This document shows positions 5,250-61,215 of a stretch of 64,000 bases of DNA, piece after piece; the stretch's first letter is position 1, and each line of letters opens with the position of its first letter. This DNA is from Tubulanus polymorphus. Its lineage: Eukaryota > Nemertea > Palaeonemertea > Tubulaniformes > Tubulanidae. The translations under genes were made by a program, and so were the position numbers. Under the pieces are notes generated by a model that saw nothing but the letters and a program-made list of their open reading frames with translations, had not been told where the DNA came from and made no database searches. The DNA lies in contig NC_134033.1 of NCBI RefSeq assembly GCF_964204645.1, positions 15,688,155 to 15,752,154 of the forward strand, read 5' to 3'.

Positions 5250-6119
5250 TACGGAGCCCCGTTGGTGACATGGTGAAAAAAAAAATTTCTGCGGGAATGA
5301 AATAATCTTTCCGTTCGAACGAAAAGTTCTTCGTGGGAACGAAAAGTTTTTCGTGGGAACGAAATCTTTTTTTATGGTTGATAATTTCCCCTGGCCTACT
5401 GTTCCCATGGAGTTAGTAACACAGATTATAAAAGAGATCCGAACCATTCGGCAGTCATCGACTGATTCCATGACTACTTAATATCAATTAATCCGTCATC
5501 TACGTTACTAACCGTCATTGTTGATTATAACAGAATGTTTTCTGGATCCAACATTACGTATCTACTTGTGGATCTATCACGGATTTGGAATTATAGAACT
5601 GAGTCTTACATCTCAATAAAGTATTACCTCACGTGACCATAGCCCTTGACGTTCATGCATTCTGGTCGAAAACTGTAGCATTCCTCCTTGTGAGAATATC
5701 GCTCCCCCCAAAGGGGTATATTTCTGGGCTGGGTTGCAGTCTCAATGAGTCTAGGGGTTGTTATTCTGGGTCAATTTGTAGGGGGTTTATATTGTCTGAG
5801 GGGTAATTTTCCAAAAGGGGTTATTGTCTTTGGAAGGCATTTATAGGGACTATCGTCTGGAGGTAACAAGACTGAGTCGTGAGCGTTAGGTTAGGATTTG
5901 GATTAGATTCCACAGTGTTCGAATAAAAAAACAATAATTTTCTCTTCACACGTTTTTCGTTTTCAAGGAATAGTTATTTTGTTCCGACGAGAAGATCATT
6001 TTGATGCCAACGAAAAACTGTTCGTTCCGACGAAAAGATTATTTCGTTCCCAGGAAAAATATTTCGTTCGAAAGAAAATCTATATTCATCTTTCAACCGT
6101 TCACCTCCGGGGCTCCTTA
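5250..6119. mobile_element. MITE-like element, second tandem copy
   Basis: Same element as 38-907, carried along by the tandem duplication and not a new insertion, since its position within the broken exon is identical. Confidence 0.75.
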
Positions 6120-40615: not shown

Positions 40616-41074
40616 TACATCATCTCACTGCATCTTCTCCTCATTAATAGTATTTCCGTTTAGATATAAATGATTTCCGGTTTACTTCCGGTAAGGTTAT
40701 AGAAATGCGTGGTAGGATAAGATAAGTCAAGCTTATCGTTGAACTATCGGCAGGATTCATTGTTTTCGATTGCCAGAGTCGGCAATTCCCGGTGATCCCA
40801 AAATCCGTGAGCGCCTCTGTAAATATTCTACGCTCGAGAAGAAAATCAACACTTACCGAACGACTCTAGAAACAGCTTTGAATTATTCAGAAGGAAATCA
40901 GAAATTTTATTTTGAATGGAATATTCTGGTGACACAGGTGACGCAAAATAATCAGCGCCGGGATTCACAATTGACAAAACATTAAAACATTCGATATTAA
41001 ACCGATCGAAAATGAACGAGCGGATTTAAGCTATTATAAAGGTGCATTTTCTTAGTCTTTTTAGTCTCCCAGCG

Positions 41075-41505
41075 CTAATTGGGGTCATTTTTGGCTCCAG
41101 CTCCAGCTCCGGCTCCGGCTCCGGCTCCGGCTCCAGCTTCATCTCCAGCTCCAGCCCCAGCATTGTTACCACCGTTGTCATCGTCATCATCATCAGCTGA
41201 AAACAAAGAAACGAAATATTTTCCAATCCAAATTATCGAGGACAACTCTCGAGATGGACACTATTATCCTCATTGTTATCATTCCCTTTAAATTTACTTT
41301 ATTATTTATGATTTCTTTACCTTAACTTTTATTCAACAAGTTAAGGCTGCTAACGTCACCCGATCCGTATTAGTAGTCCCTTTTGATTTTGGAGATTTTG
41401 AAAAATGTTTAATGAAACAGGTATGAACTTACCGGCTTCTGCATGCGACGTGAAGTGTAACGACAGTAGTAGGAACACGGCTCCGAGAATCAGGAAATAA
41501 CGCAT
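41075..41505 (-). CDS. Small secreted Asp/Gly/Ala-rich peptide (copy 1)
   Basis: Two coding exons, 41433-41505 and 41075-41196 (- strand), give 64 aa. The signal peptide MRYFLILGAVFLLLSLHFTS precedes a likely cleavage after HAEA. The mature part has an Asp-rich head (DDDDDDNGGNN), a Gly-Ala run of about 24 residues, and ends AKNDPN. The acceptor AG lies right before the ATG, so an untranslated first exon is expected near 41741-41820. The paralogue at 59887-60656 has the same exon phase, the same signal peptide pattern and the same NDPN-stop. The mature peptide could be a structural or matrix peptide; sequence alone does not give a function. Low-complexity composition means homology rests on the signal peptide, splice sites and promoter. 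Confidence 0.8.
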
Positions 41506-41740
41506 CTGCAAATTCAAGAAAAAAATAAACAGAATATTCTTTAATCTATACAAAGTCAAAATTGTTGCTTTTTTCGATTTCAAGCGGAAAGAGTTTACGA
41601 ACTTTTATGATACTATTTCGTCGACTTCAAATAACCTGTGAAATGATAAGAAATATAATTGTACATACTAAAATAGGGGAATGTATACAGTTGAAATGAA
41701 ATATTTAAACTATACCAACTGAAACTTCAGCGTCTCGTAC

Positions 41741-41862
41741 CTGTGAACTATTCTGCGGTTTGAACCTACTTCTAATCCCGACCAATTCTTAAACCAAACT
41801 GACGCACGTCACCTGCTTCTTACTAATTGGACGAACAGATGCCGGCAATTATATATATGAAT
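41741..41862 (-). promoter_or_regulatory. TATA box and 5' UTR exon of peptide gene 1
   Basis: On the - strand, TATATATAATTGCC (41847-41860) is followed, about 30 bases on, by a segment ending ACAG|GTACGAG at 41741, which I read as a non-coding exon with its donor. The same order occurs upstream of peptide gene 2, and the similarity extends to about 42060. Confidence 0.6.
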
Positions 41863-42061
41863 ATGTATGATTAAAACATCTCGTTAATGGAAATTCTCAA
41901 GGGCGGCGCCTTAAAATCGCGAACCATTATCGTTTTCCGATAGCAATTATAATCATAACGTTTGCCCCGATTTAGGTTGTTTTTATTTGCTGGAAAGAAT
42001 CGAAAACGAAACGAATAAATGATTGATTTACAATTAAACTGAAATATTCCATCGTAGCTGA

Positions 42062-42735
42062 GATAATGGTTTTTCACCAGCATCGAAAGAGTTCAAAGCT
42101 TTTGAAGTCAATACATGTACAATCCGCGCCTGAGGTTCAATATATGGGGTAGAAAAAGCTAAGAACTTTCAATTTATGTCTGGTTCCAAGGGGAGGTAGC
42201 AGAATCCGCACCTAGAACGACGTTAATGATACATAAGAAAAACATTAACTAATTCCAACTTTTGACTAAAGCTCGGCCGCAAAAAACGAAATCATTTTTC
42301 TGACCTCCTCAAAGTAATGGAACTGTACATTACTTTCAATATAATAAACACATTTTCCTCTCAAACCTCGAACTCATTTTGCCGGTCCCACAGTGTGGCG
42401 AGGTTTAATGTTTACGCAGCGCGAAACCTCGATCAGTTGAATAAATACAAAAGAAAATTGAAGTCAAACGTATCATTTTTTTCTGATAAATGGTGTATAT
42501 TTAATTAATTAATATAACACTGTTATTAACACATAGTTTATAATGATTTATTTCTATTTACATTCTATATCATCGTCATAATTATAATCATCTTTACAAC
42601 AACATCATTTTATCTTAATCCATTTATAATAATATTTTACCATTCACGGTGTACACGGTTATTTCGGCGGCATGAAATTTGCCCGACATTATTTTCTAAA
42701 TGATAACTAAAAACGAAGCTCCATCGCCATCGGGC
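42062..42735. other. Intergenic, AT-rich
   Basis: No gene is seen. The last 200 bp are AT-rich with TTATAATAA-like runs leading into the minisatellite. Confidence 0.5.
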
Positions 42736-44283
42736 AATCGTCGCTATAGACTGGCAAACCGGTTTACCCGATTGGGCAAACGTCGTTATAGACAGGCAAA
42801 CCGGTTTACCCGATTGGGCAAACGTCGTTATAGACAGGCAAACAGGTTTACCCGATTGGGCAAACGTCGTTATAGACAGGCAAACCGGTTTACCCGATTG
42901 GGCAAACGTCGTTATAGACAGGCAAACCGGTTTACCCGATTGGGCAAACGTCGTTATAGACAGGCAAACAGGTTTACCCGATTGGGCAAACGTCGTTATA
43001 GACTGGCAAACCGGTTTACCCGATTGGGCAAACGTCGTTATAGACAGGCAAACCGGTTTACCCGATTGGGCAAACGTCGTTATAGACAGGCAAACCGGTT
43101 TACCCGATTGGGCAAACGTCGTTATAGACAGGCAAACAGGTTTACCCGATTGGGCAAACGTCGTTATAGACAGGCAAACCGGTTTACCCGATTGGGCAAA
43201 CGTCGTTATAGACAGGCAAACCGGTTTACCCGATTGGGCAAACGTCGTTATAGACAGGCAAACCGGTTTACCCGATTGGGCAAACGTCGTTATAGACAGG
43301 CAAACAGGTTTACCCGATTGGGCAAACGTCGTTATAGACAGGCAAACCGGTTTACCCGATTGGGCAAACATCGTTATAGACAGGCAAACAGGTTTACCCA
43401 ATTGGGCAAACGTCGCTATAGACAGGCAAACCGGTTTACCCGATTGGGCAAACGTCGTTATAGACAGGCAAACAGGTTTACCAGATTGGGCAAACGTCGT
43501 TATAGACAGGCAAACAGGTTTACCCAATTGGGCAAACGTCGCTATAGACAGGCAAACCGGTTTACCCGATTGGGCAAACGTCGTTATAGACAGGCAAACA
43601 GGTTTACCAGATTGGGCAAACGTCGTTATAGACAGGCAAACCGGTTTACCCGATTGGGCAAACGTCGTTATAGACAGGCAAACAGGTTTACCCGATTGGG
43701 CAAACGTCGCTATAGACAGGCAAACCGGTTTACCCGATTGGGCAAACGTCGCTATAGACAGGCAAACCGGTTTACCCGATTGGGCAAACGTCGTTATAGA
43801 CAGGCAAACAGGTTTACCAGATTGGGCAAACGTCGTTATAGACAGGCAAACAGGTTTACCAGATTGGGCAAACGTCGTTATAGACAGGCAAACAGGTTTA
43901 CCCGATTGGGCAAACGTCGTTATAGACAGGCAAACAGGTTTACCAGATTGGGCAAACGTCGTTATAGACAGGCAAACAGGTTTACCAGATTGGGCAAACG
44001 TCGCTATAGACAGGCAAACCGGTTTACCCGATTGGGCAAACGTCGTTATAGACAGGCAAACAGGTTTACCAGATTGGGCAAACGTCGTTATAGACAGGCA
44101 AACAGGTTTACCAGATTGGGCAAACGTCGTTATAGACAGGCAAACAGGTTTACCCGATTGGGCAAACGTCGTTATAGACAGGCAAACCGGTTTACCCGAT
44201 TGGGCAAACGTCGTTATAGACAGGCAAACCGGTTTACCCGATTGGGCAAACGTCGTTATAGACAGGCAAACAGGTTCACCAGA
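42736..44283. repeat. 42-bp minisatellite, ~37 units
   Basis: Head-to-tail units of GACAGGCAAACCGGTTTACC, then CGATTGGGCAAACGTCGTTATA (42 bp). Variants are CAGG for CCGG, CAGATT for CGATT, CTGGC for CAGGC, and CGCTATA for CGTTATA. Because 42 is a multiple of three and the unit has no stop, the + strand is open for 562 codons and part of the - strand for 296. I regard the array as non-coding. Confidence 0.95.
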
Positions 44284-44496
44284 TATCTCTATTCAGTATT
44301 CCTATATCTAAAGTGTATCAGAAATAGTACAGAAGACTTCGCTCGAGTCAGATCTGTTGGGACCGTAAAATGTGCCCGACTCAAGTGATGCCCAATTTGG
44401 ATGTTATGTATTTCCAAATGTAGTATCACAAAAAACATTTTTTTTTAAAACATCCGAGTTGAACGGTTATCTCTGAGTTAATAGGATCCGACTCGG

Positions 44497-44620
44497 GCGG
44501 AGTCTACTGGATCCATTTCCACAGTTGTGAGTTAGAGTTAACTCTGAGTTAAAATTAGTTCATTTTCAATGTTTTAACTCAGAGTCAAATCTTAACTCAC
44601 GACTGTGGAACTGGGCCCTG
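44497..44620. repeat. Foldback, CAGTTCCACAGTTGTGAGTTA family
   Basis: GGATCCATTTCCACAGTTGT...GAGTTAAAA pairs with TTTTAACTCAGAGT...CTGTGGAACTGGGCCC. A relative lies at 51172-51285. Confidence 0.7.
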
Positions 44621-44839
44621 TAGTTTACTTGAAGATGAACTAGAAATTATTCTGATTTTGAGAGAGCTTGTATTTTGATATTTTTCGGTGAAGTCGAGAG
44701 CTCTTAAAAAGTAGAAACTATTGTCAAATAGTCGTCGTAGTCCGGTGTCGACCGGACGCTCGACCTCGCAAATCTCTTCGAAATAAAAGTTGATAATAAC
44801 TATATGTGACATTTACACACGCATTTTACAACTGCGCCT

Positions 44840-44942
44840 AGGGCCCAGTTTCACAAAAAAAGATTTCAGCCTAAATCGATTTACGATTAACGAAGAAATT
44901 GAATCGATTCTAAAGAGACATTTTTGTGAAAGTGGGCCCAGT
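44840..44942. repeat. Foldback, GGGCCCAGTTTCACAAAAA family
   Basis: GGGCCCAGTTTCACAAAAAA and TTTTTGTGAAAGTGGGCCC form the ends; inner arms CTAAATCGATT / AATCGATTCTAAAG also pair. Confidence 0.8.
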
Positions 44943-47115
44943 GTTTAAATACCAGACTGCTGTACAAAAAAAAACTAAAATCAATCGAAGATCATAAAAA
45001 ATAACTGAACTGTGTGTTAAATTCTATACAGAAATCTACCAGGATCCAGTTCGATCGATGTCGGGCTAATTTCACTGTAGAGTTTGTAGATTTGAAATGG
45101 GTCTCAATGAGCCATCGATGCCCTCAATTTGCTATATCTATCAGAAGCGAGATACTTTGGGGTCTTGCGTTAAAGATCCCTTTCGTATAAAACCCCTATA
45201 AACATGAGACTTACAATTAAATTGTTGTTTACGTACTATGCGACAATTGTTAAAACAGTTCTGATATGATTGTCAAATATCCCGTAGATGGTTGCTCTAT
45301 TTATCAAAGATGAGATATTTGGGGGTCCTTAGGTTTAGCATAGCATACTTTATATAGGTGTCACTTTCTTCCAAGTCAGTTTCTTGTATGTTAATGAACA
45401 AATTGACCGCAAATATTGTCCTGATTAGACCGAAATCCGGATTAAGTCGATCAGGATTAAGCGGATTTGACTGTATCTAAAAGGTCTTAGATCTTAGATT
45501 AAGGGGGTCTTGGGTTAAGTGACATTTTAAGTTAAAGTTCATTTCCAATCAGTCGAACTCTAGACTGAAATTTCGCTCGACAACTATCAGACAGGGTCCA
45601 GGATTTCAGGTTCATGATTGTAACAAACCGACACAAATTCACACGTCGTCGGTCGAAAAAATACATCCACTGCACGTCAAATAACAGGTGTCGCGTCAGC
45701 CGAGTTCACAACGAAAATACAGCGAAATTAAAATCATATTCTATTTGTGGAATGTTGAAAATGGATACACGCTTAAAAAGAGGCCTGCACAAAAAATACA
45801 ACGTAAATCTCGGTAAATTTTTTCGTAGTGAAATTAATCTATTGCTCCATAACAACTTGCTAAAATACGGCAGCCGCTCGATGAAGTTGGTTAGTTAAAC
45901 TGATGGATAAATACAGTACAACTTGCTTCAGTCGGATCAGTTTTATTCCGGTTTTCACTTATTTCCCCTCTGGGTTATCTTTATTCAAATAAGAGCACAT
46001 AATTCGGATTTTGTTAAATTCGGGCACAATTTTCCAATTCGAGGTGATCCGAATTAAGCGAGTTTTAATGTAAACTAATACAATTTCAATCGTCAGATTT
46101 GCATTTTCACCAGTTGTCTTTAACCAAGTTTTCAGTAACCAGGCCCTGGAATAATACAGATGAAACTGGTAAATTATTCGCGTTTGAAATATTTGCTTTT
46201 CTTCCAATTCACGTGTAGGTTTTTCATCGTTTTATATCAAGCCGAGGTTCGACCAATTCAACGTCGAAACAGTCGCTCGCTCTGTCATCACTGGACGGAC
46301 GAAACCACTCCGATCACGAATGACTCCCTACCCCTCACCCTGATGAACATGGGTGCTTTCTTTACCCTGCCTCCCCATTAGAGTAAGGGTCAACACCGAG
46401 AACAGACGGTCTCCCCTCCTGACACGCGAGGGCCACTTAAATTCCCCCTTTTCCCCTCCTCCGATGAACGGGGGCGGATCAAAGAGGCTTATTTTGAAGG
46501 ACTTGTCATATCCAAAAAGGACGGCACTGAGGGGCCAATTCTTAAGAACTTGTCACATCCCAAAAAGGCACTTCGATGTCGAAGTCTTTGATGTTTAAGC
46601 GTACTCCCGCACTGGAATGCACCAATTTTTTTGTTAGTTGGCAAAATGAAAAGGGGAAATATTTGATGGACTCGTACAAGTCTAAGTTAAGTCTCCTGGA
46701 TCCACCCCAGCCATCGTTTCCACAACAAATAAAAATTCGATAAAATTACAACAAATTTGTGCCCGAACAATCACAATAGACTACGCGGCTTGCCACGGAG
46801 CTGATCACAACCTAAAATCATCCAACTCCAATTCAAGCAATGATGACCCATGATCGCTCCGACTGCCTACAGAATTCACTCGCATCGGAGATTAATATTT
46901 TGGTCCCGCGAGATCCGAAGTTATCAAATTTCACCACCGTACTCATCTAAAACCGGTGAAACAACGAAAAACAAAATATCGACCGCTCAACTGGCGGTAT
47001 TTTAACATCGATCAATTAATCACATCATTCGATAAAAAAAATCTCATTTCTTCAGCGAGTAACGAAACAAAAAATAATGCACGACGATTTCGTCGAAAAT
47101 TACGAGCAAATTCGA

Positions 47116-47254
47116 CTCCTGGACCCAGTTTCACGAAAAAGTTTAAGCCTAAGACGGTTAAGTTTGAATTGTTGTCCTCGTTGAAAACATGAAGTAACCA
47201 ATGGGGATTACACCAAATATTTGAGTTTAACTTTTTTGTGAAGCCGAGCCCTGG
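47116..47254. repeat. Foldback, GTTTCAC family (copy of 3998-4126)
   Basis: GGACCCAGTTTCACGAAAAA...CTTTTTTGTGAAGCCGAGCC. The inner sequence TTGAATTGTTGTCCTCGTTG is the complement of part of 3998-4126, so the two copies are inverted relative to each other. Confidence 0.75.
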
Positions 47255-47288
47255 CCCTCAGAAAATACACTCCGCTTCCACAAGCCCA

Positions 47289-47428
47289 GGGACCAGTTCC
47301 ATAGTCAAGGCTAAGACTTAAGACCGGTCTAAGATCAACTTAGTTCTATAGCCAATCTAACAACTTAAGACCAGTCTTAAGATTTAAGACCACTTTTGGT
47401 CTTAAGTCTTGACTATGGAACCGGCCCC
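47289..47428. repeat. Foldback, CAGTTCCATAGTC family
   Basis: GGGACCAGTTCCATAGTC and GACTATGGAACCGGCCCC are inverted ends; the inner part repeats CTTAAGACCAGTCTTAAG. Relatives lie at 53381-53800 and 55062-55138. Confidence 0.8.
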
Positions 47429-48039
47429 TCAGTAGCTTCGGTTGTTTGTAAGCAGGGTCAAACGCGCTTAAGTCGTTGTAATTGCGATGATTATTACGTC
47501 GAGGACTTATCAAAATGATGACTTATGCTTAGTAAATTGAGTTGGAAATACGAATGCAGATTGGGGCTCAAAAAAATGGAGATGACTTCAGCGATGTGAC
47601 GACTTATCCAATCCAAATGACATTTAGTAAATTGAATTGGAAATATGCAGATTGGGACTATAATTAGGACAACTATAAGCGATGTGACTTCATTAACTGA
47701 TCTCGACTCAAGCGAGTTTGACTGCGTCAGGGTTTTCATTAATCGGTTAATCCCGAATTGCCCGATATTTCCACGATCCTCGACTAGCGGAATTACCGAG
47801 ATATTCTCCACGGGGCTCGTAGGAAGTGAATTCTGTCGAATCAACGATCATCGGCAGGCTGATTATAAGTGAGTTTATAGTTATTGTATATCGTATAAGA
47901 CTGGCGCGAAAAAAAAAAAACAACAAATTCTCTTGCGTCGAGTGAAGTGTCAGTCGTCGCGAGGTGGAGCGAGTATCCACCCGCTATCCACACATCAGCA
48001 TCCACTATTCAGTTATGTATCTGTATGTCCGGGATTTGA

Positions 48040-51000
48040 CTAGTGTAACACGCTGGATACATCCCATAACTGGAAATAGATCGAAACAAAATCTTAAATA
48101 TCGGTTCAAATAAGTGGCACCTACAGTAGTTGTAGAGCATGTAGAGCATGTAGAGCATATGTAATGGACTTATGGCAACATCAATCTGCTGTCCAGACCC
48201 TGTGCATCCTTTTAGAAATAAGATGACTGCCTCATGAATCCCCTGATGATATTATCAAATTGATTACCGAAACCTAGTCTCTCAAATGCGAGGAAATTGC
48301 ATTGAAATGCATGGATATTTCTTTGTGTTCCAGTCAAATTCCACCCCTGGATTTGCCTCTGAGGCTGAGGAGGTCGGGTGCAGGATTGCTCCGGACTTCA
48401 GGACGAGAGGATAAGCTCGAGGGCATGCTCCAGACTGCCGGTTGAGGGAATTGGTGGAGCTGTAGGGTGAAAGGGTGGCTCCAGGCTACATGCCGAGGAT
48501 TAGCACCCGGCTCCAGGGGATTGGCTTACAGGCTGAAGGGGTGGCTCCAGGATGCATGCTGAGAGGATAAGTGCCACGATCCAGGCCGCAGGCTCAATGG
48601 GTGGCTCCAGGCTGCAGATTAATACCGGTACCTGACACTCACCTTAATAACTTTATCTTTGCCGACTGTTAATAGAATTTTACGAATTTCGTCCAAATCC
48701 ATGTGGACAATACTGTGTCGCGAGTCGTGGAATGTCGCCATGGGAACGCGGTCCTCGTCGGTAACCGTTTGACTGCATTCCGCGCAGACCCGCACGTCGA
48801 ATTCGTACCCCATTATCGGTATCGACGTGCGGTTACCGCTGCATTTGTCGCAGACGGCTTTTCCACATTTACGGCAATGGTGCTAAAAGAGGAGAAAATG
48901 AATAATTCGCATTAAGCTCGCGTCGAGGATGAATTTCTGGTTATGGTATTACGTCACGCGGGAACTACAAACGAAGACAGTTTTAACTATAACCATCGGT
49001 GATACAATATTCCACGTTTTAATGATAGAAAATCCCACATTCATATAGCAGAAGATTAAGTGTGAAAAGTTTCCTTTCCGGTGTAGATTTATTCGACTAT
49101 ATCCTGATAGTCATCTTCAGGAATACTGTATACATTGAGCTAGTGTAGTTTATTCAACGTTTCGACTTTATCCTGATAGTCATCTTCAGAAATAATGAGT
49201 GAAACAAAATATCTATATATGATATAAATATCTAGATATGTCTCTAAGAACTAAGAGACAAATTAAGTAAGCTCAACCAAGAATATTAAGTATTCCTAAG
49301 CATTCCGAAGGCAGGGAGCGAGAAATGTGGAAGATCGTCTGCCAAAGGTACTAAGTTTGGTATAATATAAGCTAATTGTCCCATTTAGATCTAAGTTGAT
49401 GAGAAGGTGAATATTTTGGGAGAAGTTTGCAGAGATAATCATCTCTGTAAACAAGATATTTATAACTACGTGTCACGATACAAACTGCGTCTGGCGCGAA
49501 AATTACATCGACAACCGATTCGTCGAAAGCGCCACCTACCTGTCTCGTTCCTATCGTTTTTTCTTCCCACATTTTCTTTAAATTCCAGAAAAATGGCGTG
49601 CCGCATTTTTGACAGTGGTCGCCTTCGGCCCACTCGGGAGTCTGAAATTAAAAATGACCTTTCACATCAATCCTCTGATTTGAGAATCAATTGAGATATT
49701 GAAGAGTAGGGTTCAATTGAACAGTAAGGAGTGAAGTCCTTAATCAAAGTCAGAAATAGACAAGAGTCTCGAATTATGGTCGTTCATCTAAGGTAGGTTT
49801 CAATAGTAAGTATTCCGGTGTTTAGGAATACAAATTCCACTTATTACAAACTCTCTATCGGCAGCTTCTATCAGGTTTACAGATTACAAACTCTCTACCG
49901 GCCGCTTCTATCAGATTTACAGATTACAAACTCTCTATCGGCAGCTTCTATCAGGTTTACAGATTACTAACTCTCTACCGGCCGCTTCTATCAGGTTTAC
50001 GGATTACAAACTCTCTACCGGCCGCTTCTATCAGGTTTACAGATTACAAACTCTCTACCGGCCGCTTCTATCAGGTTTACAGATTACAAACTCTCTATCG
50101 GCAGCTTCTATCAGGATTACAGATTACAAACTCTCTACCGGCCGCTTCTATCGGGTTTACAGATTACAAACTCTCTACCGGCCGCTTCTATCGGGTTTAC
50201 AGATTACAAACTCTCTACCGGCAGCTTCTATCAGGTTTACAGATTACAAACTCTCTACCGGGGCTGCTTCTATCAGGTTTACAGATTACAAACTCTCTAT
50301 CGACCGCTTCTATCAGGTTTACAGATTACAAACTCTCTACCGGCCGCTTCTATCAGGTTTACAGATTACAAACTCTCTACCGGGGCTGCTTCTATCAGGT
50401 TTACAGATTACAAACTCTCTACCGGGGCTGCTTCTATCAGGTTTACAGATTACAAACTCTCTACCGGCCGCTTCTATCAGGTTTACAGATTACAAACTCT
50501 CTACCGGCAGCTTTTATCAGGTTGACAGATTACGTTATTCCGGAATAGTTAGAGCATATTCTGGTCTAACCGAACACGTCAGAAGAGAATTCCGAATTCA
50601 TTAGAGACCAATCGAAACCTATCAAAACCTTGACAGTGTAACTCAGGTTCACTGACCTCTTGGCGTTTGATGTCCATTGTCCAGATAACTAATGCATTAT
50701 CATCACCGGCTGATAGTAACTGTTTTGTACTCGCGGCATAAATCACAGATTGTACTTTATCACTGAAAATGAATACCGATTTTAGATTTTAAGGGATTTA
50801 TAACTGTTTTGAGATCAGGCGCAGATCCAAGCGGTCTACTGGGCCTTGTACGCGATCCTCAAATTTTTAAATCTATTGATTTAATGAATGAACTAAATGA
50901 ACTAAACATGTTGTTAACCCTTTCAGTGCGTCTGCACCGCAGTGCGGTGTACGAATCAGTGATGGATTTTGCTAGTACACCGCACTGCGGTGTATTGATT

Positions 51001-54000
51001 TAATTTACTTACTGATGACCTTGTAATTCGAAGGCCGTCCCCTGTTGACCCCCGATGTCCCAGACGATTATCGTCTGGTCGAAACTTCCGGAAAATAGTA
51101 AACTGCGTTCCACGTCCCACGACAAACACCTTATACTACCTGCAATTATATAATACAGTAATTTGTGAAATCTGGGATCCAGTTCTACAGTTGCTACTTG
51201 AGAGTAAGCCCTTAACTCAGAATCAAGTCCTACAGTTGTGAGTTAGAATTAACTCTGAACTGGGACCCAGTTCCACAGTATGGTGTGATTGAGTTATAGT
51301 AACACCTGTTGAACTGACTGGGGTTGTGCAAGTACCTCCCTGCCCGTCTCCCACATGATATACTATTCATTTACCCGAGTGTCCCTTGAGAGTTGTGATG
51401 ACCTCCAGACGATTTTCGAGTAGTTTAATAACGGTGACTTGACCGGAATAATCACCGACGAACGCGTAACGAGACTGAGAGTCAAATCTGTAGAGTTATC
51501 ATCAAGGATTCATAACAGACATTCCATACCGTAGACCGCTCGTAACAACAGAAAATCTGCAGTAATTCAACACTTGCCGGTTGAACGGTCATGCTGGGTC
51601 GAGAAGATCATCAGTTACAATGGTTCGATACACGAAAGACGGTCTCTCATTTGGCTGATATTTTTGATGTAGTAATGAAGAATTCTGATGATGATATGTC
51701 TCGGGAGGAACGACGATAACTATCATCACTCCTCCCAAGACATATTATCATGATGACGATGGCTGGCCCGACGATCTGGACGACTAAGCCGGTCCGTGAC
51801 CAGAGGGGTCAGACACAGAGGGTGACCTCCCAAAGTTGGCCAACTCGATATCATTTGAAAGCTTGCGAAAAGAGCTTTCAGAAAATGTATACGTTTATGA
51901 CATTAGCCCTCATATCTACTGAGGTATTAAGTTTTCCCTCGTCTGGTCCAAAATCGTTTTCAGGCTGAAAGGTTAAGCGAGTTTGGCTTGACCAAGTTAA
52001 ACATCTACCCCGAGGGATAACTCATGATATCCAGCCCATTAAAACAGGTTTGGGTTGAGGACCTATCCCTACAAATAACTTTTGATATCCAGTCCATAAA
52101 GTAGGATCAGTGTATCTCAACTATTATCAAGTAAAGGATACTGTAGACAAGTACACCAAGCAGACGTCTGGAACCCACCGAGACGACGACCCGTCTCCGA
52201 ACAATGCCACTGGAAATATTTATCTCGACCGGTGCTAAGCAACCATTCACACGTCAACGCGTAGATTATCCCCGTCACTCGACTTTGATGCGCTGAAAAG
52301 TAGTAGTAAATGTTTGATGATTGAATTAGTTATTCTCAAGTGTCGAGTTGGAGATTAAATTTCATACAAATCAAATGCGAAAACAGGTAGCACTTTGTAG
52401 GTTAACTGATATTCTATTAGCTCAATTAGTCGGTCTTATTACTTGCGGGTTTTTTCTTCAAGTACACCTACTACCTGTTTTCTCGTTAGACCAGCATATT
52501 TCCAACAGAATTATGGCGATGAATTATGATTATTTGATTATTTTCAGGATATCTTACCGAGATACGTTCGACTGTGCGTCATACGATTAAAATCATCGGC
52601 TAAAGAGAATTCCTACAAAACGAAGAAATTCAAATTTTTTAAAACGATAGTAAACAGTTAACTGGTCTGCTATAGTTCAGTAGACTGCGCGGAGCTCGCA
52701 GAAACTCCCTCAAACAGGGCGCCGCCACTTTCTGTCCATTTACAAATGCCCTGAATTGTCCACGTGATTACACAAAATTCCCCAGAGAAATTTCTAGGTT
52801 TAAATGTTACGATTCATTTATTTTTCATCGAATCACAAACTGATAAAGTAACATGTGGTCAATACCGTTATATTATGAGAACTCCCCTAGTTCTCGAGGT
52901 TTTAGGTTAAAATTTTTCGAATTCCCTGGGGTCGGTTTTATAGACTGGTATTACCTTTAACCCGTGGGTTAACTAAAAGTGTTTTCAACCAAGTTAGCCC
53001 ACGGGTTAAAGGTAATACTGATCTATAAACCCAGCCCTGAGTTTTCCTTGATTTTTCTGATTCCCCGATATTTCTAGGTCAGTGGCCATCCTGCCGAAGA
53101 TACGCTAATTTCGGGGTACTTGGACCAGGGATGGGCCATCATCATCACGATGAATTGGAGTAAAATAATTTGTTATATATTTTCAGGCGATACACGCGTT
53201 AAAATTCAAGGCAATTGAATCAGATGTATTTTTAGTTCACTTGTATATAGCTACCTGAATGGTTCCGTTGTCTAAACCAATGAACAGTCTTCTTGTTTCC
53301 GGTGTGTAATGCAGAGATGTTGGCGCAACTGAAAAAAAAACACTTGAAAATCAGTCTAAAATTCTAATAACCTTCTGGAGCGAGTTGCATAGTCGTGACT
53401 TAAAGTCAGAAAGTAGTCTTAAATCTTAAGACTGGTCTTAAGTTGTTAGATTGGCTGAAGAACTAAGATAGTCTTAGACTGGTCTTAAGTCTAAGTCATG
53501 ACTATGGAATCAGCTCCTGGGGCCAGTTGCACAGTCATGACTTAAGTCCAAAGGTGGTCTTAAATCTTAAGAATGGTCTTAAGTTGTTAGATTGGCTATA
53601 GAACTAATTTGGTCTTAAACTGGTCTTCAATCTAAGTCATGACTTTGGAACCGGCCCCTGGAGCCAGTTGCATAGTCGTGACTTAAGTCTAAAAGTAGTC
53701 TTAAATCTTGAGACTGGTCGTAAGTTGTTAGATTACCTATAGAACTATGGGCTTAGACTGGTCTTAAGTCTACGCCATGACTGTGCAACCGGCCCCGGGA
53801 GACCTGTTGATCTACAGTTATTGAGTAGTCACAGTGACTCCGAGTTCCACAGAACTGAAGAGTCCTAACGATAGGTCTCCTCAATAGTAGTCACTGGGAC
53901 TACTCCAAACTATTGAACATAAACACAGAACAGAGCTGCTGATATACTACAAACATAATTGACTATTTTTGATTGCCCGGGTAAGAGTCGCGAGACTTGA

Positions 54001-55459
54001 TTATTGGTAATTCAAAAATTGACGAATGCATTTTTTCAGCAGTACTAGATTGAGATTGGATATCAGCAATAAATTGCTGCTGCTGCTGTTGCTGCTGCTG
54101 CTGTTGTTACTGTTAGAATGAAGCAATTTATAGTAATCAGTAACACAGTATTCACAGTGTGATATATCACAGTAAATTACTGCAGAGAACGAGCGTGAAA
54201 TAATTCACACTTAACTTAACTGCGCACAACAAAATTACATCACACCCCAAAACAGTTCTAAAGCCAAGCTCGGGTCGACTAAGATTTGATGATCAGATTA
54301 TTGAGTGCAGTGGAACCTTGTTACAGCGAATTTCACGGGATCAGAAAATCTGTTCGATGTATCCAAGTTCAGTATAACGAGGTTTCACTGTACATACAGA
54401 TCGAGGGGCATGAGTGTACTTACGACCACGACTGATCAGTAACCGGTCTGCGGTTTATTTTCATAAGCCACGAGCCCATCTGATTAAGCAATGGCCACGT
54501 AACAAACTATACCCAAATATAAGCCAAAATTATATTTAGATAAAAAAAAGTTTCAATTTGAAACGTTTTTAGATATTCTTACGCAGGTATCCAAGTGAAC
54601 CCTGACCACCCCCCCCCCCCCTACCTCAGCGTTAGACACTGATAGTTGCATTTAGTGACTTACCGGGCATACAGTGACAGATACTCGGCCAGAATTGTCC
54701 GGTGTCTCGTTTCAACCAAACACGAACGGTACTGAAAATAAACGAAAACAAAGTATTTGAGATCGGCGTTCAGTCCCGAACATGTGACAAGCAATAGACT
54801 AACGGAAGGAAGGGGTCAAGTCATACTTGAACTGGACTATGCTCTATTTCTTAGCAAGCTTTCTGAAGCTGCCACTGCCTCATACGTCTTATAGTTTTAA
54901 CCGTAAAAATGGTAATGTTTATCAGATGTGTGGGCCGATAGGGGACAGGGTTAGCCAGCAACCTCACAGGGAGGTAGCTTATATGTCCCTAGTTCAAGTT
55001 CAAATTTATTTCACAGAAAGCACGACAGGCTATGTGCAGAGATTGAGAGAATCGATGCTCTGGGGCCAGTTCCATAGTCCTGGCTTAGACTTAAGATTTA
55101 AGACAACTTTTCAACTTAGGTCTTGACTATGGAACCGGCATCGACAGTTCAGACACCTGGGCATAGAAATAGTTAAAACATCTGACTGGTGACACTCAAA
55201 TACTCGCGCATTTGTGTTGACAATTATTTGACAGTTGACGCAGACAGACAGCGACTAGCAGTAGCCGGAGAGAAATGAAAGTGACAACTTACCGATCATC
55301 GCAAACACTGATTACTCCATCCTCCCGCGGTATCAACACAGCCATGTGTATCTCATCAGGACTACCCTCCAGTTTATTCAACAGCACCGGTTTACGTACA
55401 TTACCCGCTGACGGAGTTACCGATGGTTTTATCTGCGCTCTCGGTCCTCCACCCTCCAT
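48040..55459 (-). CDS. WDFY2: WDFY1/WDFY2 orthologue (WD40 + FYVE protein)
   Basis: Eleven coding exons, read right to left: 55293-55459, 54664-54731, 53255-53328, 52558-52612, 52142-52292, 51375-51487, 51013-51139, 50657-50762, 49540-49641, 48643-48882, 48040-48069. All phases agree and sum to 410 aa, the usual family length. The N-terminal part is a WD40 propeller ([58 protein letters not shown]). A FYVE zinc finger is inserted before the last blade: it opens [11 protein letters not shown], has the lipid-binding [13 protein letters not shown], and closes VRVCAEC. The last blade ends [13 protein letters not shown]. The known role is binding PI3P on early endosomes and scaffolding signalling proteins. 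WDFY1 versus WDFY2 cannot be separated; invertebrates usually have one gene. The last exon is only 30 bp. Confidence 0.93.
48345..48620. repeat. GC-rich GGCTCCAGGCTGCA repeat, last intron of WDFY
   Basis: Imperfect units around GGGTGGCTCCAGGCTGCATG, then CTGAGAGGATA, about five times. Irregular spacing of 40-65 bp; composition unlike its surroundings. Confidence 0.6.
49085..49200. repeat. CCTGATAGTCATCTTCAG direct repeat
   Basis: ATTCGACTATATCCTGATAG and TTTCGACTTTATCCTGATAG, each followed by TCATCTTCAG, about 73 bp apart. The motif resembles the inner part of the foldback at 38960-39150. Confidence 0.5.
49838..50535. repeat. 40-bp minisatellite, ~17 units, WDFY intron
   Basis: Units of AGATTACAAACTCTCTACCG, then GCCGCTTCTATCAGGTTTAC. 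Variants: GGCAGC for GGCCGC, TATCG for TACCG, and a GGGGCTGC insertion of two bases. It lies between WDFY exons 49540-49641 and 50657-50762. Confidence 0.95.
50934..50994. repeat. Short foldback built on CACCGCAGTGCGGTG
   Basis: The palindrome CACCGCAGTGCGGTG, followed 30 bases later by its close complement CACCGCACTGCGGTG, gives a nested inverted repeat in a WDFY intron. Confidence 0.75.
51172..51285. repeat. Foldback, CAGTTCTACAGTT family
   Basis: GGGATCCAGTTCTACAGTTG...CTGGGACCCAGTTCCACAG. Relatives are at 44497-44620 and 34755-35010. Confidence 0.6.
52928..53039. repeat. Foldback, GGTTTTATAGACTGGT family
   Basis: GGGGTCGGTTTTATAGACTG...AACCCGTGGGTTAACT pairs with AGTTAGCCCACGGGTTAAAG...ATAAACCCAGCCC. 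The second copy is at 58237-58352. Confidence 0.85.
53381..53800. repeat. Three head-to-tail CAGTTGCATAGTC foldbacks
   Basis: Three ~140-bp elements, each opening GAGCCAGTTGCATAGTCGTG or similar and closing GACTATGGAACCGGCCCC or similar, abut at 53519 and 53659. They lie in a WDFY intron. Confidence 0.85.
54071..54112. repeat. (CTG)n microsatellite
   Basis: Interrupted CTGCTGCTGCTGTTG run in a WDFY intron. Confidence 0.9.
55062..55138. repeat. Foldback, CAGTTCCATAGTC family, short copy
   Basis: GGGGCCAGTTCCATAGTCCT...GGTCTTGACTATGGAACCGG. It has lost most of the interior. Confidence 0.8.
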
Positions 55460-55987
55460 CTTGGATATAATGACGTCACGTGACAGACAGGTACTAAATA
55501 CTGGGGTAGGGAAAACGGGGTCTTTCACTTGGTCTCACGCTTAAATCAGTGCTTTTTTAACTCGGAATTCGGTTTCTGGCTAGGATATGGTACCAGCAAG
55601 CGGGAAATACGTAAATAACGGCATAACAAGTGGAACTTGATGTTGTCACCGTCTTAAAACCGATGCTAAAACAGGTTTTGAGCGTCTGAAATCAGCTGAG
55701 AATGAGCTGTCACAATCGCTGTCAACGCTACGAGGCAGCACCGTACAGACTCATAGTCCGGAACTAAGTCCACGACCGTGGATGGGGCACTGACTCAAGG
55801 TCGTAGACCCGGAAATAAATAAATTTGGCTAAATGCTTACAAAAAACTTAGATTTTGCGCTTAGGAATTGCTGAAATCCGAAGATTAAGGGCTATATTCA
55901 AGTCTTTAGTCTAGCGAATTTTTCTATTTCCTCCTGCGATAGAATAAAGGGACGCTCCAATTCGGAGCTTGTAAATCACTCAGGATA
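55460..55987. promoter_or_regulatory. Shared upstream region of WDFY and LIPT2
   Basis: 528 bp lie between the two start codons, which face away from each other. It must contain both 5' UTRs and promoters. No TATA box is obvious; a bidirectional promoter is inferred from the arrangement only. Confidence 0.55.
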
Positions 55988-58029
55988 ATGAAAGGACCTT
56001 CCGTTTTAGTTTATAACCTCGGCAGAATATCGTATCAACGGGGTCTCGATATTCAAGCTAACTTCGTGAGACGTTCCTTGGACGCACTCGCTAATAAAGG
56101 TACGATTTATTAAATTTGATTAATTTAATTGTATTGGTACGGTGTACAACGCGTATCTGGACTTAATAAAAACGCGTACGTGGACTTTGATTAAAACGCG
56201 GATCAGGACTTAAACTAAGAACTCGCCCGTCGTATTCAAGGCGTGCATTTTACTTGTGCATTACAAGATCCGTATTTGAATATCGTTCAATTAGCTCATA
56301 ACTAGTGTTAAGAAAACTAATCCCACACACAGAAAGGCCGAAATGTTTTCTTGAGTTGATAATTAATCAGTGTTCCCTATTTCGTCGGTATCCTCCACCG
56401 AAGTAGTTTAGCGGCCTAATCGTTGGTGGTAAGCTTTTCTGAATCAGGTGGGCTTATGCTTAAGTAATATGGATTGTGAAAATATCTGATCGTGAAACTA
56501 AACCACAGGCAGGTTGCTAACTACCACCAGAGAACATCCAAATTCTTGAGTTCTCGAAGAATTATTTCATTACTGTCACTTGTATATTGTTTCATTGTGA
56601 GATACGTAAATTTTTATCCCCAAAACTGTTTTCTTTAAATAAAATTCTACATCGTGGAACTGAAGAGAATGCACGAGAAAATGACAATACGACTTGTATC
56701 TACTTTCTTTTAAATCTTAGACCTGTATTCCTGATTCTATTTTGTTAGGTACGACGCCAGGCGTTCAGCGCCCAGCGGCGGACGATGTTCTACTGCTGAT
56801 GCAACACGATCCTGTCTACACGATCGGAATACGTCGGCGATCGTACACGATTCGCGACGAGCGGAAACTACGCGATCTAGGCGCCGAATTCTACCCGACG
56901 AATCGCGGCGGTCTGATCACGTTTCACGGACCCGGCCAACTGGTCGCGTATCCGATTCTGAATTTGAAGAACTATCGCGGACTGTCGGTTCGCTGTTATA
57001 TCGACGCGTTGCAGAACGTGTTAGTCGATACTTGCGCGGAGTTCGGTGTTGAAGCGCAGAAAACCGCTGATCCCGGGGCCTGGGTGCAAGACCGTAAAAT
57101 AGGTGCCGTAGGTACGTCATTTTAAACAATGAAGTATTTTTCGTCGATATCGAAATTGTCATTATCTACTGTTGTCTACCATTAGCAGGGGTGGGTCCAG
57201 GGGGACTAAGAATTAAGTTAAAGGTCCATCAAAATGTTTGATATTTATATGTCTTTTTATTCGTTATGTTAACAACAACTACAAAAATTGGAACAATTTC
57301 ATTACGGGAGTACGCCTTATATTGCTGTATTTTATATCAAGTGCCTTTTGGGATCAGGTCCAGTTACAAGTGACAAAAATTGTCACCATGGGGGGTGTAC
57401 AATCGGTCATTGAAGTGATGTGATTTAGTAATTTAATTTCTACGTCGCCCTTTTTCACTGTGATATGCTGTTAAACGGCACTTGTATTATTACCCCCAGC
57501 CTATAACTCTTCCATGTATCAGTCATCTCTCCCTGAGGAGAAGTAACAGTCGAGCGCTCAAGAGTCATCTATCAGACCAGGTACCCATTTACTCCCGGTT
57601 GGAGAGAGGCCATGAGGATATAAGTATCTTGCCCAGGGCACTTCTACGGTAATGTACGGGGTTCGAACCTGGCTTCCCAGAGTCGAACTCTCTAACCACT
57701 CGCCCCCACTCCGCTATTCGTTTTGATTTTTATGTTGTGTAATATCGATATTTATATCGATTTTACTTCCAGGTGTTAATGTACGCCGGTATATCAGTCA
57801 TCACGGAGTGGCGTTAAACTGCGATGTCGATTTGAATTGGTTCGAGCACATTGTGCCGTGCGGTATCCAGGGTAAAAAGGCCACGTCGCTAACGGTCGAA
57901 TCATCTCGGCAAATTTCGGTCGATTCTGCCTCGCGCGTATTCGTGGACGCATTTCGAAAGCGATTCGATTGCGATTTGATACATAGAGAATTCCGTGACG
58001 CGGATATTGTCGATCAGATCGGATCTTGA
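55988..58029 (+). CDS. LIPT2: Octanoyl-[acyl-carrier-protein]:protein N-octanoyltransferase (LIPT2)
   Basis: Mitochondrial enzyme that moves octanoate from acyl carrier protein onto the lipoyl domain of GCSH (LipB/LIPT2 family), the first step of lipoate synthesis. Exons 55988-56099, 56749-57111 and 57773-58029 have consistent phases and give 243 aa; human LIPT2 is of similar size. Seen: VLVYNLGRISYQRGLD at the N-terminus, DPVYTIGIRRRS, the LipB signature RGGLITFHGPGQLVAYP, the catalytic Lys segment DRKIGAVGVNVRRYISHHG, and the catalytic Cys in HIVPCGIQGKKATSL. The first residues MKGPSVLVYN do not make an obvious long targeting peptide. A longer N-terminus from an upstream exon is possible but not seen. 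It is head to head with WDFY. Confidence 0.95.
57520..57715. repeat. SINE-like sequence in intron 2 of LIPT2
   Basis: CCAGGTACCCATTTACTCCC, then TATCTTGCCCAGGGCAC, then GGGGTTCGAACCTGGCTTCC and AACCACTCGCCCCC. This arrangement (B-box-like GGTTCGAACC near a CTAACCACT end) is common in invertebrate SINE-type repeats. Family name not assigned. Confidence 0.5.
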
Positions 58030-58139
58030 TGTTACTTTATCTAAACTAATCAAACGTAAGAACAGGCAGTAATGTGGTATGTGGACTGGTTTTTATTGAA
58101 TCTTGGAGTAGTCGTTTGATTAATCCAAGATTGAAAGTA

Positions 58140-58232
58140 CAAGCTTTTGCTACTAATGCGGAGTAGCTGCACCAGTTAAACCACTCATTTATATCTGGTG
58201 AATGCACCACTAGTAGTGAACGCTTGTGAAGC
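58140..58232. repeat. Foldback, AAGCTTTTGCTACTA family, second copy
   Basis: CAAGCTTTTGCTACTAATGC...CACTAGTAGTGAACGCTTG; partner of 18286-18379. Confidence 0.7.
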
Positions 58233-58236
58233 TACT

Positions 58237-58352
58237 GGGTCTGGTTTTATGGACTGGTTATATACCTTTGACCCGGGGGCTAACTCAACTCATTTTCAAT
58301 TGAGTTAGCCCTCGGGCTAAAGGTATAACCAGTCTATGAAACCAGCCCTTGA
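58237..58352. repeat. Foldback, GGTTTTATGGACTGGT family, second copy
   Basis: GGGTCTGGTTTTATGGACTG...TCTATGAAACCAGCCC with inner arms GACCCGGGGGCTAACTCAA / TTGAGTTAGCCCTCGGGCT. Partner of 52928-53039. Confidence 0.85.
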
Positions 58353-58754
58353 CGTATATAGTAGTTGCCTCAGAAAAACCAGGGGTACTCATTACACCCG
58401 GTGAAGCTACTGTACACTAGTTGCGAGGATTCGTGATTTCAAAATGCTATCAGTTAACCTACACAATCTTATCCGTCAGACCAGACCACATATCTCGACC
58501 CATATCTCGACACATAGTTAGGACTAGAATCGGTATATCTATGCGTACGTCGCATTACGATATGTAAAGTCGTTCTCAATTCACGATTGCTCGCAGTAAA
58601 TCACAGTATTATTTCAACAGATCGCTTATTATTGATACATGTCATAAATGTAGATAGATTGGTACGATTTTAGTAGAGACAATCCGTGTTTAATATACAT
58701 TTGTAATCAATTTGAAAATCTAGAAAACATGTAGAATTATAAAAAAAAACTATT

Positions 58755-58875
58755 ATAAAATTTTGTTAGATTTTCTCTATTTTTGTCCTCGTTCTGTTTT
58801 TGTATAACGCCGGAAGTTACTCGTCGGCCATGTTGTCATCTGTTGGCGGTCGGTGTCGTTGACGTACACCCGAGA
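58755..58875 (-). pseudogene. Inverted fragment of SLC22 exon 10 (gene G type)
   Basis: The complement reads through CAACGACACCGACCGCCAAC, then GACAACATGGCCGACGAG, TAA, CTTCCGGCG, and AACAGAACGAGGAC to the downstream flank ATAGAGAAAATCTAAC. It matches gene G (39335-39445) better than the other copies, since only G has the NEDD tail and this 3' flank. The Gln codon after ADE has become a stop. Only the last part of the exon is present. Confidence 0.85.
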
Positions 58876-59024
58876 AGCTCCGATCAGTAAACCCTGGCAT
58901 AAATAGGAAATCTTAATAGTTTGATATAATAAGATCATCAAATACATTTAGAAGATTTGAGCAGCCGTATTTTAGGTATAATGATATTTTCACGTTTTCT
59001 GGTTTTTATGTATGGAATTCATTA

Positions 59025-59207
59025 ATTTCATTGCAGAAACCCTGTAAATATTCTCTAATTAGTGTCAACCCTATAAAATGGCTTTATTCAATGAGGCGGG
59101 TAGCGCCGCGCGTCGCGCTGAACTTCTGAATCTATCATCAGCGGAAATTAGAATGAAAAAATTACCGACTGAATTGAACACCGTTGAAGTGAGAGCGATT
59201 GTACAAT
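59025..59207 (-). pseudogene. Inverted 3' fragment of the nested GPCR
   Basis: On the - strand this reads IALTSTVFNSVGNFFILISA, DDRFRSSARRAALPAS, then diverges (LNKAIL, stop). It corresponds to 38200-38333 plus about 30 bp of 3' flank of the GPCR in gene G. Only TM7 and the tail are present; the 5' end stops abruptly at about 59207. Confidence 0.88.
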
Positions 59208-59384
59208 GGTGACTTCAGGTTAACTCCATTTGTTAATTACGCTAGTCGAACGGCTCGTAGTCCGGACGTAGAGTGACACCGATGCTGGACTCTATAGAGA
59301 GGAGATGGTCTGAAACCCTGAAAAGCGCCAAGTTCAAATGAACCAATAGGCAAACGATCAACATGATACATTCACGTCGATGCA

Positions 59385-59680
59385 TCGCGACATCAGCCAC
59401 AATTGTTTATTTCAGTTTGATTGTGAATTTTCATGTTGCGGTCGATTTTCAACAACCTTTTCCAACAAATAAAAACAAGCTAATTGGAGCGAACGGTTAT
59501 AATTGCTATCGAAAATTGATAACGTCTGCGATAATTGGGCGCCGTCCTCGAAAATTTGGAAAATTTCCATTAATTAATGAAATATTTTGATTATATAATT
59601 GCTGGTACCAGCGGTCAGGAGCGTCAGTTTGGTTTACGATTTGGCTGGAATTAGAAGTAGGTTCATACCGCAGAATAAGG
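59385..59680 (+). promoter_or_regulatory. Promoter and 5' UTR exon of peptide gene 2
   Basis: TATATAAT at 59593-59600, followed about 30 bp on by a probable non-coding exon ending CAGAATAAG|GTACGTG at 59679. The block from 59385 aligns with the complement of 41690-42065 upstream of peptide gene 1, including TATTTCAGTTTGATTGTGAA, AACAAATAAAAACAA and TTATAATTGCTATCG. Confidence 0.65.
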
Positions 59681-59886
59681 TACGTGACGCTGAAGTTTCA
59701 GTTGGTATAGTTTGGTCTTTTTATTCTAACTATACACAATCCTGTGTTTAGTATTCGATTTATATTTGATTATTTCACAGGTTTTTGAAGTTGACGAAAA
59801 AGTATTTTAAAGTTCGAAATCTACAAAAAAAATACAATTTATTTCTTGCAACAAATTCTAAGATATTCGTTTTTCTCAATTTTCAG

Positions 59887-60656
59887 ATGCGTAATATTCT
59901 GATCCTCGGAACGATGTTGCTACTGCTGACGTTACAACTGACGTCACAGGCAGAAGCCGGTAAGTTCAAACGGAGCCCCGGACCTGAAATAGTGAAAAAA
60001 TACATCTCATTTCGTTCGAACGAAATGTTTTTTCGTGGGAACGAAAACTTTTCGTTCGAATGAAAAACTTTTCGTTCCCAAGGAAAGCATTTCGTTTGAG
60101 CGAAAAGATACGATATGAATTGATATGATATACTATCGTTCCCACGAAAAAGATATTCACTTTTCACCACGTCACCTTCGGGACTCCGGAAGTTCAAACC
60201 TATTTCACTAAAACTTCATTTTTGAAAATCACCAAAATCGAAAAGGACGCGGATCGGATGGCCTTGACCTGAGCGGCCTTTTAGTTTGTCGCTAAGGTTA
60301 AAGATAAAGCAGCCGTAAAAAGCATAAGTAAAGTGAGGGAAACTGTTATACCGGTATCGACTATTACTTCACCCACTAGTCAATCCTTCATGAATATTTT
60401 CCATGAGGATTTGTCTCACTGGAGGCAATTCAGAGTCCTTCATCTGATATTGATACTTACATATCGTTGTCCAATAGAATCTGTAATTTGAATTTGGAAA
60501 TATTTCGTTTCTTTCTTTTCAGTTGTTCAGCATCCTACCACCACCAGCAGTAGCAGCGGAGGTGGCGGAGCTGGAGCTGGGGCTGGGGCTGGAGCAGGAG
60601 CTGGGGCTGGAGTTGGAGCTGGGGCTAATGCAGAAGCTGACAATGACCCCAATTAG
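59887..60656 (+). CDS. Small secreted Gly/Ala-rich peptide (copy 2)
   Basis: Coding exons 59887-59959 and 60523-60656 give 68 aa. The signal peptide MRNILILGTMLLLLTLQLTS ends QAEA. The mature part is VVQHPTTTSSSSGGGG, then about 24 residues of alternating Gly-Ala, then NAEADNDPN and a stop. As in copy 1, the acceptor CAG directly precedes the ATG and the donor splits a codon after AEA. The intron contains a 218-bp inverted-repeat element. The 16 bases around the stop (GACCCCAATTAGCGCT) are conserved in both copies. Only the Gly-Ala core and signal are shared: copy 1 has an Asp-rich head, this one a Thr/Ser-rich head. Function unknown; a structural, matrix or surface-binding role is a guess. 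Confidence 0.82.
59972..60189. mobile_element. CGGAGCCCCG-family MITE in peptide gene 2 intron
   Basis: 218 bp with inverted ends GGAGCCCCGG...AGTGAAAA and TTTTCACC...GGGACTCC. Flanked by AAGTTCAAAC on both sides (59962-59971 and 60190-60199), a 9-10 bp target duplication as made by Mutator-like transposases. Inner TTTCGTTCGAACGAAA palindrome. Without it the intron start GTAAGTTCAAACC matches that of peptide gene 1 (GTAAGTTCATACC). Confidence 0.85.
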
Positions 60657-61215
60657 CGCTTGGAATACTGTGTCGTATCGCTATGTTGGGTAGGTTATTT
60701 CAATTGACTCCATCTCTTATAGCAAACACCAGAACACGAACAGTTCTTGCTTGATTTTGACGAGGACTTTGGAACTGTATTAAGGGTTTTGTTACACAGT
60801 TGTTAGGGGTTAAGTTCGACTGAAAATCAAACTCAGAACTGTTGAAATTGGATTGTAATATGACGATCATTATGTTTATAACTAATCAAAAGGATGTTTT
60901 TATACATAGTGAATAAAATTACGAATACAAATTTGGACTCATAAAACAGATAACTGAATTATAGCGACGGCTTTTACATATAATGCAGATATGGATGTTT
61001 GTTCTGTTTCAGATGTCAACCCGGTAGCGGAAAAATACAAATCAACAAAAGATATGAAGACAATTCGCCTTTACAATTGCTTAAATCCGATTATACATAT
61101 TTGATTGGTTTATTATTGAATATTTTCTCTCGCCTCTATCTCCAGAACATTTCAATCGAATAAAGTTTCTGATTTTCATCCAGTGCTTTAGTTACTTCGG
61201 TATCCGAATTCCGAA
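60657..61215. other. 3' region of peptide gene 2 and of the receptor
   Basis: AATAAA at about 60912 and 61158 (+). CTGTTTCAG|ATGTCAACCC at about 61010 could be the acceptor of a 3' UTR exon. No other gene is seen. Confidence 0.4.

Follow-up and report, generated by a model that had tools for sequence, protein, structure and literature searches.

The window analysed here, a 64,000-nucleotide stretch of the Tubulanus polymorphus genome (contig NC_134033.1, positions 15688155–15752154), holds two short and similar sets of exons on opposite strands that end in simple Gly-Ala repeats. Are these working genes, how did there come to be two of them, and what would their products do? Re-reading both strands bears out the original prediction of a pair of homologous small genes in opposite orientations, with predicted products of 64 and 68 residues, and the components of the two genes are as follows.

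41075–41855, minus strand: gene A, from TATA box through last coding exon
41848–41855, minus strand: TATA box of gene A, TATATAAT, aligning with that of gene B
41741–41801, minus strand: non-coding 5′ exon of gene A, running from the shared CAGTTTGG (putative transcription start) to the donor GTACGAG
41433–41505, minus strand: signal-peptide exon of gene A, 24 residues plus the first base of a split codon; GT donor at 41432
41075–41196, minus strand: last coding exon of gene A, with Asp6 head, Gly-Ala stretch, KNDPN and TAG
40906–40911, minus strand: poly(A) signal AATAAA of gene A, placed by 3′ UTR alignment with gene B
59592–61164, plus strand: gene B, from TATA box through AATAAA
59592–59599, plus strand: TATA box of gene B, the same octamer as in gene A
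59625–59679, plus strand: non-coding 5′ exon of gene B, from alignment with gene A; transcription start predicted
59887–59959, plus strand: signal-peptide exon of gene B, 24 residues plus the first base of a split codon
59968–60194, plus strand: MITE-like insertion (about 230 bases) within intron 2 of gene B, between two copies of AAGTTCAAA; gene A has no counterpart
60523–60656, plus strand: last coding exon of gene B, with VVQHP-Thr3-Ser4 head, Gly-Ala stretch, DNDPN and TAG
61159–61164, plus strand: poly(A) signal AATAAA of gene B, placed by 3′ UTR alignment with gene A

The two genes share several features. First, the ATG lies directly 3′ of a splice acceptor in both, so that the first exon is wholly 5′ UTR. 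Second, both have a phase-1 intron that splits the codon after AEA; the predicted proteins are MRYFLILGAVFLLLSLHFTSHAEA followed across this exon junction by ADDDDDDNGGNNAGAGAGDEAGAGAGAGAGAGAGAKNDPN for A, and MRNILILGTMLLLLTLQLTSQAEA followed by VVQHPTTTSSSSGGGGAGAGAGAGAGAGAGVGAGANAEADNDPN for B. Third, the signal peptides match at 15 of 24 residues, and the ends are KNDPN-TAG and DNDPN-TAG, with the 19 bases spanning the stop codon (AATGACCCCAATTAGCGCT) identical. Fourth, the promoters are homologous as had been claimed, with the same TATA octamer and 5′ exons that are 89% identical over 55 aligned bases, although the distance from the TATA box to the shared initiator-like TCAGTTTGG is 34 in B and 55 in A and is thus near-canonical in B only. 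Finally, the heads of the predicted mature peptides do differ, with Asp6 in A and Thr3-Ser4 in B. One detail needs adjustment: the Gly-Ala run given as 24 residues is present in both, but the length is approximate (23 were counted) and the stretch is broken once per copy, by DE in A and by V in B.

On the alignments, A and B are paralogues from one old inverted duplication of a single gene. A blastn comparison of the A region with the window matches the B region and nothing else, with a main match of 75% identity over 384 bp (E 1e-37, dust filtering on) to which the Gly-Ala DNA contributed nothing. The matching pieces extend from 40984 to 41996 in A and from 59459 to 61126 in B, and the duplicated unit thus comprises one gene with about 100–200 bases upstream of the TATA box and the 3′ UTR. 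Between the copies, the 5′ exon shows the highest identity (89%, as above), ahead of intron 2 with insertions excluded (81%), intron 1 and the signal-peptide exon (79% each) and the last exon (73%).

Intron 1 begins with 34 bases (59680–59713 in B; 41740–41707 in A) that contain a single difference, and over the 5′ exon and the start of intron 1 only seven of 89 positions differ (binomial 0.0015 at 20%), a degree of conservation that could reflect a possible regulatory element. Gene B alone carries two extra pieces. The MITE-like insertion in intron 2 has near-inverted ends; it has no part in gene function and shows that intron 2 tolerates insertion. TTTCGTTCG-rich repeats at 105–152, 762–866, 5317–5364 and 5974–6078 resemble it in make-up. 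The second piece (60664–61046, about 380 bases long), in the 3′ region, is either a 3′ UTR intron (GGGTAGGT...TTTCAG) or an insertion.

The whole genome (267.8 Mb in 77 contigs) was searched for further members. DNA searches with the promoter, 5′ exon and signal-peptide exon return A and B and nothing else. A 19-mer across the splice junction occurs exactly in A and B and at no third place with up to two mismatches, and exact copies of the stop-spanning 19-mer are likewise found only in A and B; its remaining matches, with up to two mismatches allowed, all have two and are near the number expected by chance. The confinement of both 19-mers to the pair places the likeness of A and B far beyond chance. 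Besides the pair, protein searches with A and B recover nothing but low-complexity stretches of Gly-Ala, Gly-Glu or Gly-Ser; the NDPN tail is present on the correct strand in none of those examined, and a scan upstream of six of them revealed no signal-peptide exon. A scan of the window for further hydrophobic ATG exons with a GTRAG donor likewise yields just those of A and B. By all genome searches the family in this assembly has two copies, with the qualification that these searches score best candidates only and very diverged relatives may escape them. A transposable-element origin of the gene pair was rejected, just two copies being found.

Whether the two copies encode working proteins cannot be read from plain identity, since the coding exons (79% and 73%) are overall no more identical than the introns (79–81%); for the same reason constraint is visible mainly in the frame and in the distribution of indels. 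Here there are several informative observations. First, the 73-base signal-peptide exon has accumulated no indels, while the introns, over 432 aligned bases, have about 25 gaps (about one per 17). Second, none of its 15 substitutions falls at a second codon position, all being at first and third positions (chance 0.002); NG86 estimates, from few sites, are Ka 0.19 and Ks 0.40. Third, the last exons differ in length by 12 bases, which keeps the frame. Fourth, in neutral simulations at intron-derived rates the frame and splice sites of both exons survive in 0.09% of runs, rising to about 0.3% (up to 0.32%) when indel rates are halved or quartered, and to 2.2% with no indels at all. Such frame-preserving evolution supports real coding genes, and we hold with good confidence that both genes are protein-coding.

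An alternative is that these are decaying or non-coding copies, relics or transcripts without a working protein, in which the Gly-Ala run is merely a (GGAGCN)n microsatellite. Tandem Repeats Finder does report 6-base arrays at 41094–41161 and 60567–60626, and the exon identities no higher than those of introns would be expected of such copies. However, at about 20% divergence the frames, all splice sites, the TATA boxes and the AATAAA signals are intact in both copies, and the lack of second-position changes within the signal peptide is not readily accommodated. Moreover, departures from GGA-GCT in the Gly-Ala array of B are all synonymous except for one GTT, though as repeat copying makes them non-independent they cannot be counted as separate events. 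We therefore consider decay or non-coding status unlikely.

If the genes are coding, the products are probably acidic, cysteine-free, disordered secreted peptides. The predicted signal peptide occupies its own exon in both genes, with a hydrophobic core (Kyte-Doolittle 3.0–3.2 over 11 residues) followed by a −3/−1 Ala-X-Ala site, such that both hydropathy and the −3/−1 rule are consistent with secretion. Cleavage after AEA would release a mature A peptide of 40 residues (3.4 kDa, pI 4.05, charge about −8 at pH 7) and a mature B peptide of 44 residues (3.7 kDa, pI 4.05, charge about −3 at pH 7). Gly and Ala together make up 60% of mature A and 55% of mature B and there is no Cys; beyond the signal peptide A has one Lys and B neither Lys nor Arg. 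Neither has a second hydrophobic segment, the best 19-residue hydropathy of the mature region being 0.32 in A and 0.88 in B. The Asp run of A is encoded by GAT GAT GAT GAC GAT GAC and the Thr/Ser head of B by ACC ACC ACC AGC AGT AGC AGC, a pattern that in both heads suggests an origin by trinucleotide slippage.

The original prediction held that no named family has this layout. For sequence homology this stands, as a Pfam search gives no match over the cut-off for A or B, and PDB matches are mostly to linker and low-complexity regions. (The best Pfam match of B is New_glue, PF21827, at E 0.057 over residues 1–40, a likeness in signal peptide and Thr/Ser stretch; membership was rejected, B scoring 13.6 bits where the cut-off is 31 and A being unmatched.) In layout, however, the pair fits the compositional classes described in PMC4944945 and PMC4897951, and by composition the kind of protein is already known. 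SilkSlider (McDougall et al. 2016) uses a signal peptide and a Gly-rich stretch to find silk-like structural proteins (SLSPs) of biological materials, most of which are lineage-restricted and independently arisen, and in which the Gly-rich stretch probably confers toughness, elasticity or gel formation (PMC4944945). A and B have in common with these a predicted signal peptide, no later transmembrane segment by hydropathy, a Gly-rich simple-repeat core and apparent lineage restriction. Gly accounts for 30% of each mature peptide and for 43% (A) and 46% (B) of the best 28-residue window, above the sensitive SilkSlider threshold of 35% in 28 residues; the default threshold (25% in 80 residues; PMC4944945) requires a window that mature peptides of 40–44 residues, far shorter than typical SLSPs, cannot fill. 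SLSPs are a compositional class, and the likeness of A and B to them implies no homology.

On their likeness to SLSPs and to the repetitive low-complexity proteins of mantle secretomes (PMC4897951), we propose, at roughly even odds, that A and B are a pair of gel- or matrix-forming secreted peptides. Among the matrix, silk-like and surface-binding roles offered earlier, the matrix or silk-like role is on composition the most plausible. Outside the cell, the pair would serve as structural or gel-forming parts of a matrix, tube, cuticle, mucus or shell; the Gly-Ala core would act after secretion through passive packing and hydration, and the head, whether Asp6 or Thr/Ser, could tune charge or possible O-glycosylation. 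A more elaborate proposal has a lineage-restricted peptide pair whose heads were exchanged after duplication, the silk-like core and fixed NDPN tail remaining shared, with a mineral-facing and a glycan-bearing version that co-assemble; it seems to us improbable as it stands. As things stand, the many secreted proteins that are Gly/Ala-rich and lineage-restricted gain one small orphan gene pair with clear limits, which offers a natural comparison: with a common core and tail and different heads, the effect of Asp6 versus Thr/Ser is addressable with two peptides of 40–44 residues.

A related proposal gives the heads a more specific task, with the Asp6 of A binding calcium or crystal faces, the Gly-Ala core anchoring the peptide in a silk-like gel, and B acting as a non-mineral partner. 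The poly-Asp head and the charge of mature A suit such a role, and there are precedents: in shell matrices, calcium binding has been attributed to acidic repeats and a part in the gel to Gly/Ala-rich ones (PMC4897951), and Hic74 joins poly-Ala blocks with acidic motifs (PMC6542584). Proteins with repetitive low-complexity domains (RLCDs) in mantle secretomes, whose repeats change via slippage (PMC4897951), resemble A and B in their Gly/Ala-rich core, acidic stretch, fast repeat-driven turnover of the head and predicted secretion (as in Hic74 and MSI60; PMC6542584), but known RLCD members differ in carrying mineral or mantle evidence. Nonetheless, the earlier suggestion of calcium or mineral binding by the poly-Asp head is unsupported, since the run is a six-codon GAT/GAC repeat of a kind that slippage can produce and is missing from paralogue B. 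Shell proteomics of Lingula, furthermore, found no secreted acidic proteins (PMC4595640), so that shelled protostomes need not use them. The low-molecular-weight Ala-rich shell matrix proteins of Lingula are small, lineage-specific and Ala-rich like A and B, but are described as about 100–200 residues long with a predicted three-helix bundle (PMC4595640), whereas in A and B Gly and Ala alternate over about 23 residues. On balance a mineral-associated pair is rather unlikely.

A role in defence or at the body surface, as Gly-rich peptides secreted constitutively for antimicrobial or anti-fouling action, also seems quite doubtful. Small size, a signal-peptide exon and a TATA promoter are frequent in genes of this sort, and A and B have all three. 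The usual Gly-rich antimicrobial peptides are cationic, however, while mature A and B are anionic, without cysteine and nearly without basic residues; the charges given above speak against a cationic Gly-rich antimicrobial peptide. Immunity genes do occur among the Gly-rich false positives of SilkSlider (PMC4944945). Finally, although a signal peptide and short length would suit peptide-hormone or neuropeptide precursors, neither mature region has a dibasic or GKR site and the core is a simple repeat, making this reading highly improbable.

In the window, A and B have GPCR genes, a lipoyl transferase gene and organic-cation-transporter-like (MFS) exons as neighbours, which give no hint of a functional cluster around the pair. 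The MFS exons are repeated between 8037 and 34720 (e.g. at 13089, 19151, 24496, 28988 and 34220), which suggests a tandem array of transporter copies. The window also has a minisatellite with 37 copies of a 42-base unit (42732–44284, within 42700–44388, plus strand), found at a single place in the genome search. Read on the plus strand, its frame stays open for 562 residues of (GKRRYRQANRFTRL)n, and a GKRR amidation/dibasic site returns every 14 residues in the manner of an RLamide neuropeptide precursor. In this frame, synonymous changes account for 31 of the 37 variant codons, but the common variants number just three, two further frames lack stops as well, and no signal-peptide exon came to light for it. 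Two other minisatellites lie at 49843–50533 (40-base unit, 17 copies) and 53375–53809 (141-base unit, three copies), and a 47-base relative of the 141-base unit recurs at 22546 and 27505. Genome searches for COX1, molluscan haemocyanin and the annelid haemoglobin linker gave no match, though in runs that had no animal positive control. A bantam microRNA in the genome, scoring over the Rfam threshold, points to a protostome.
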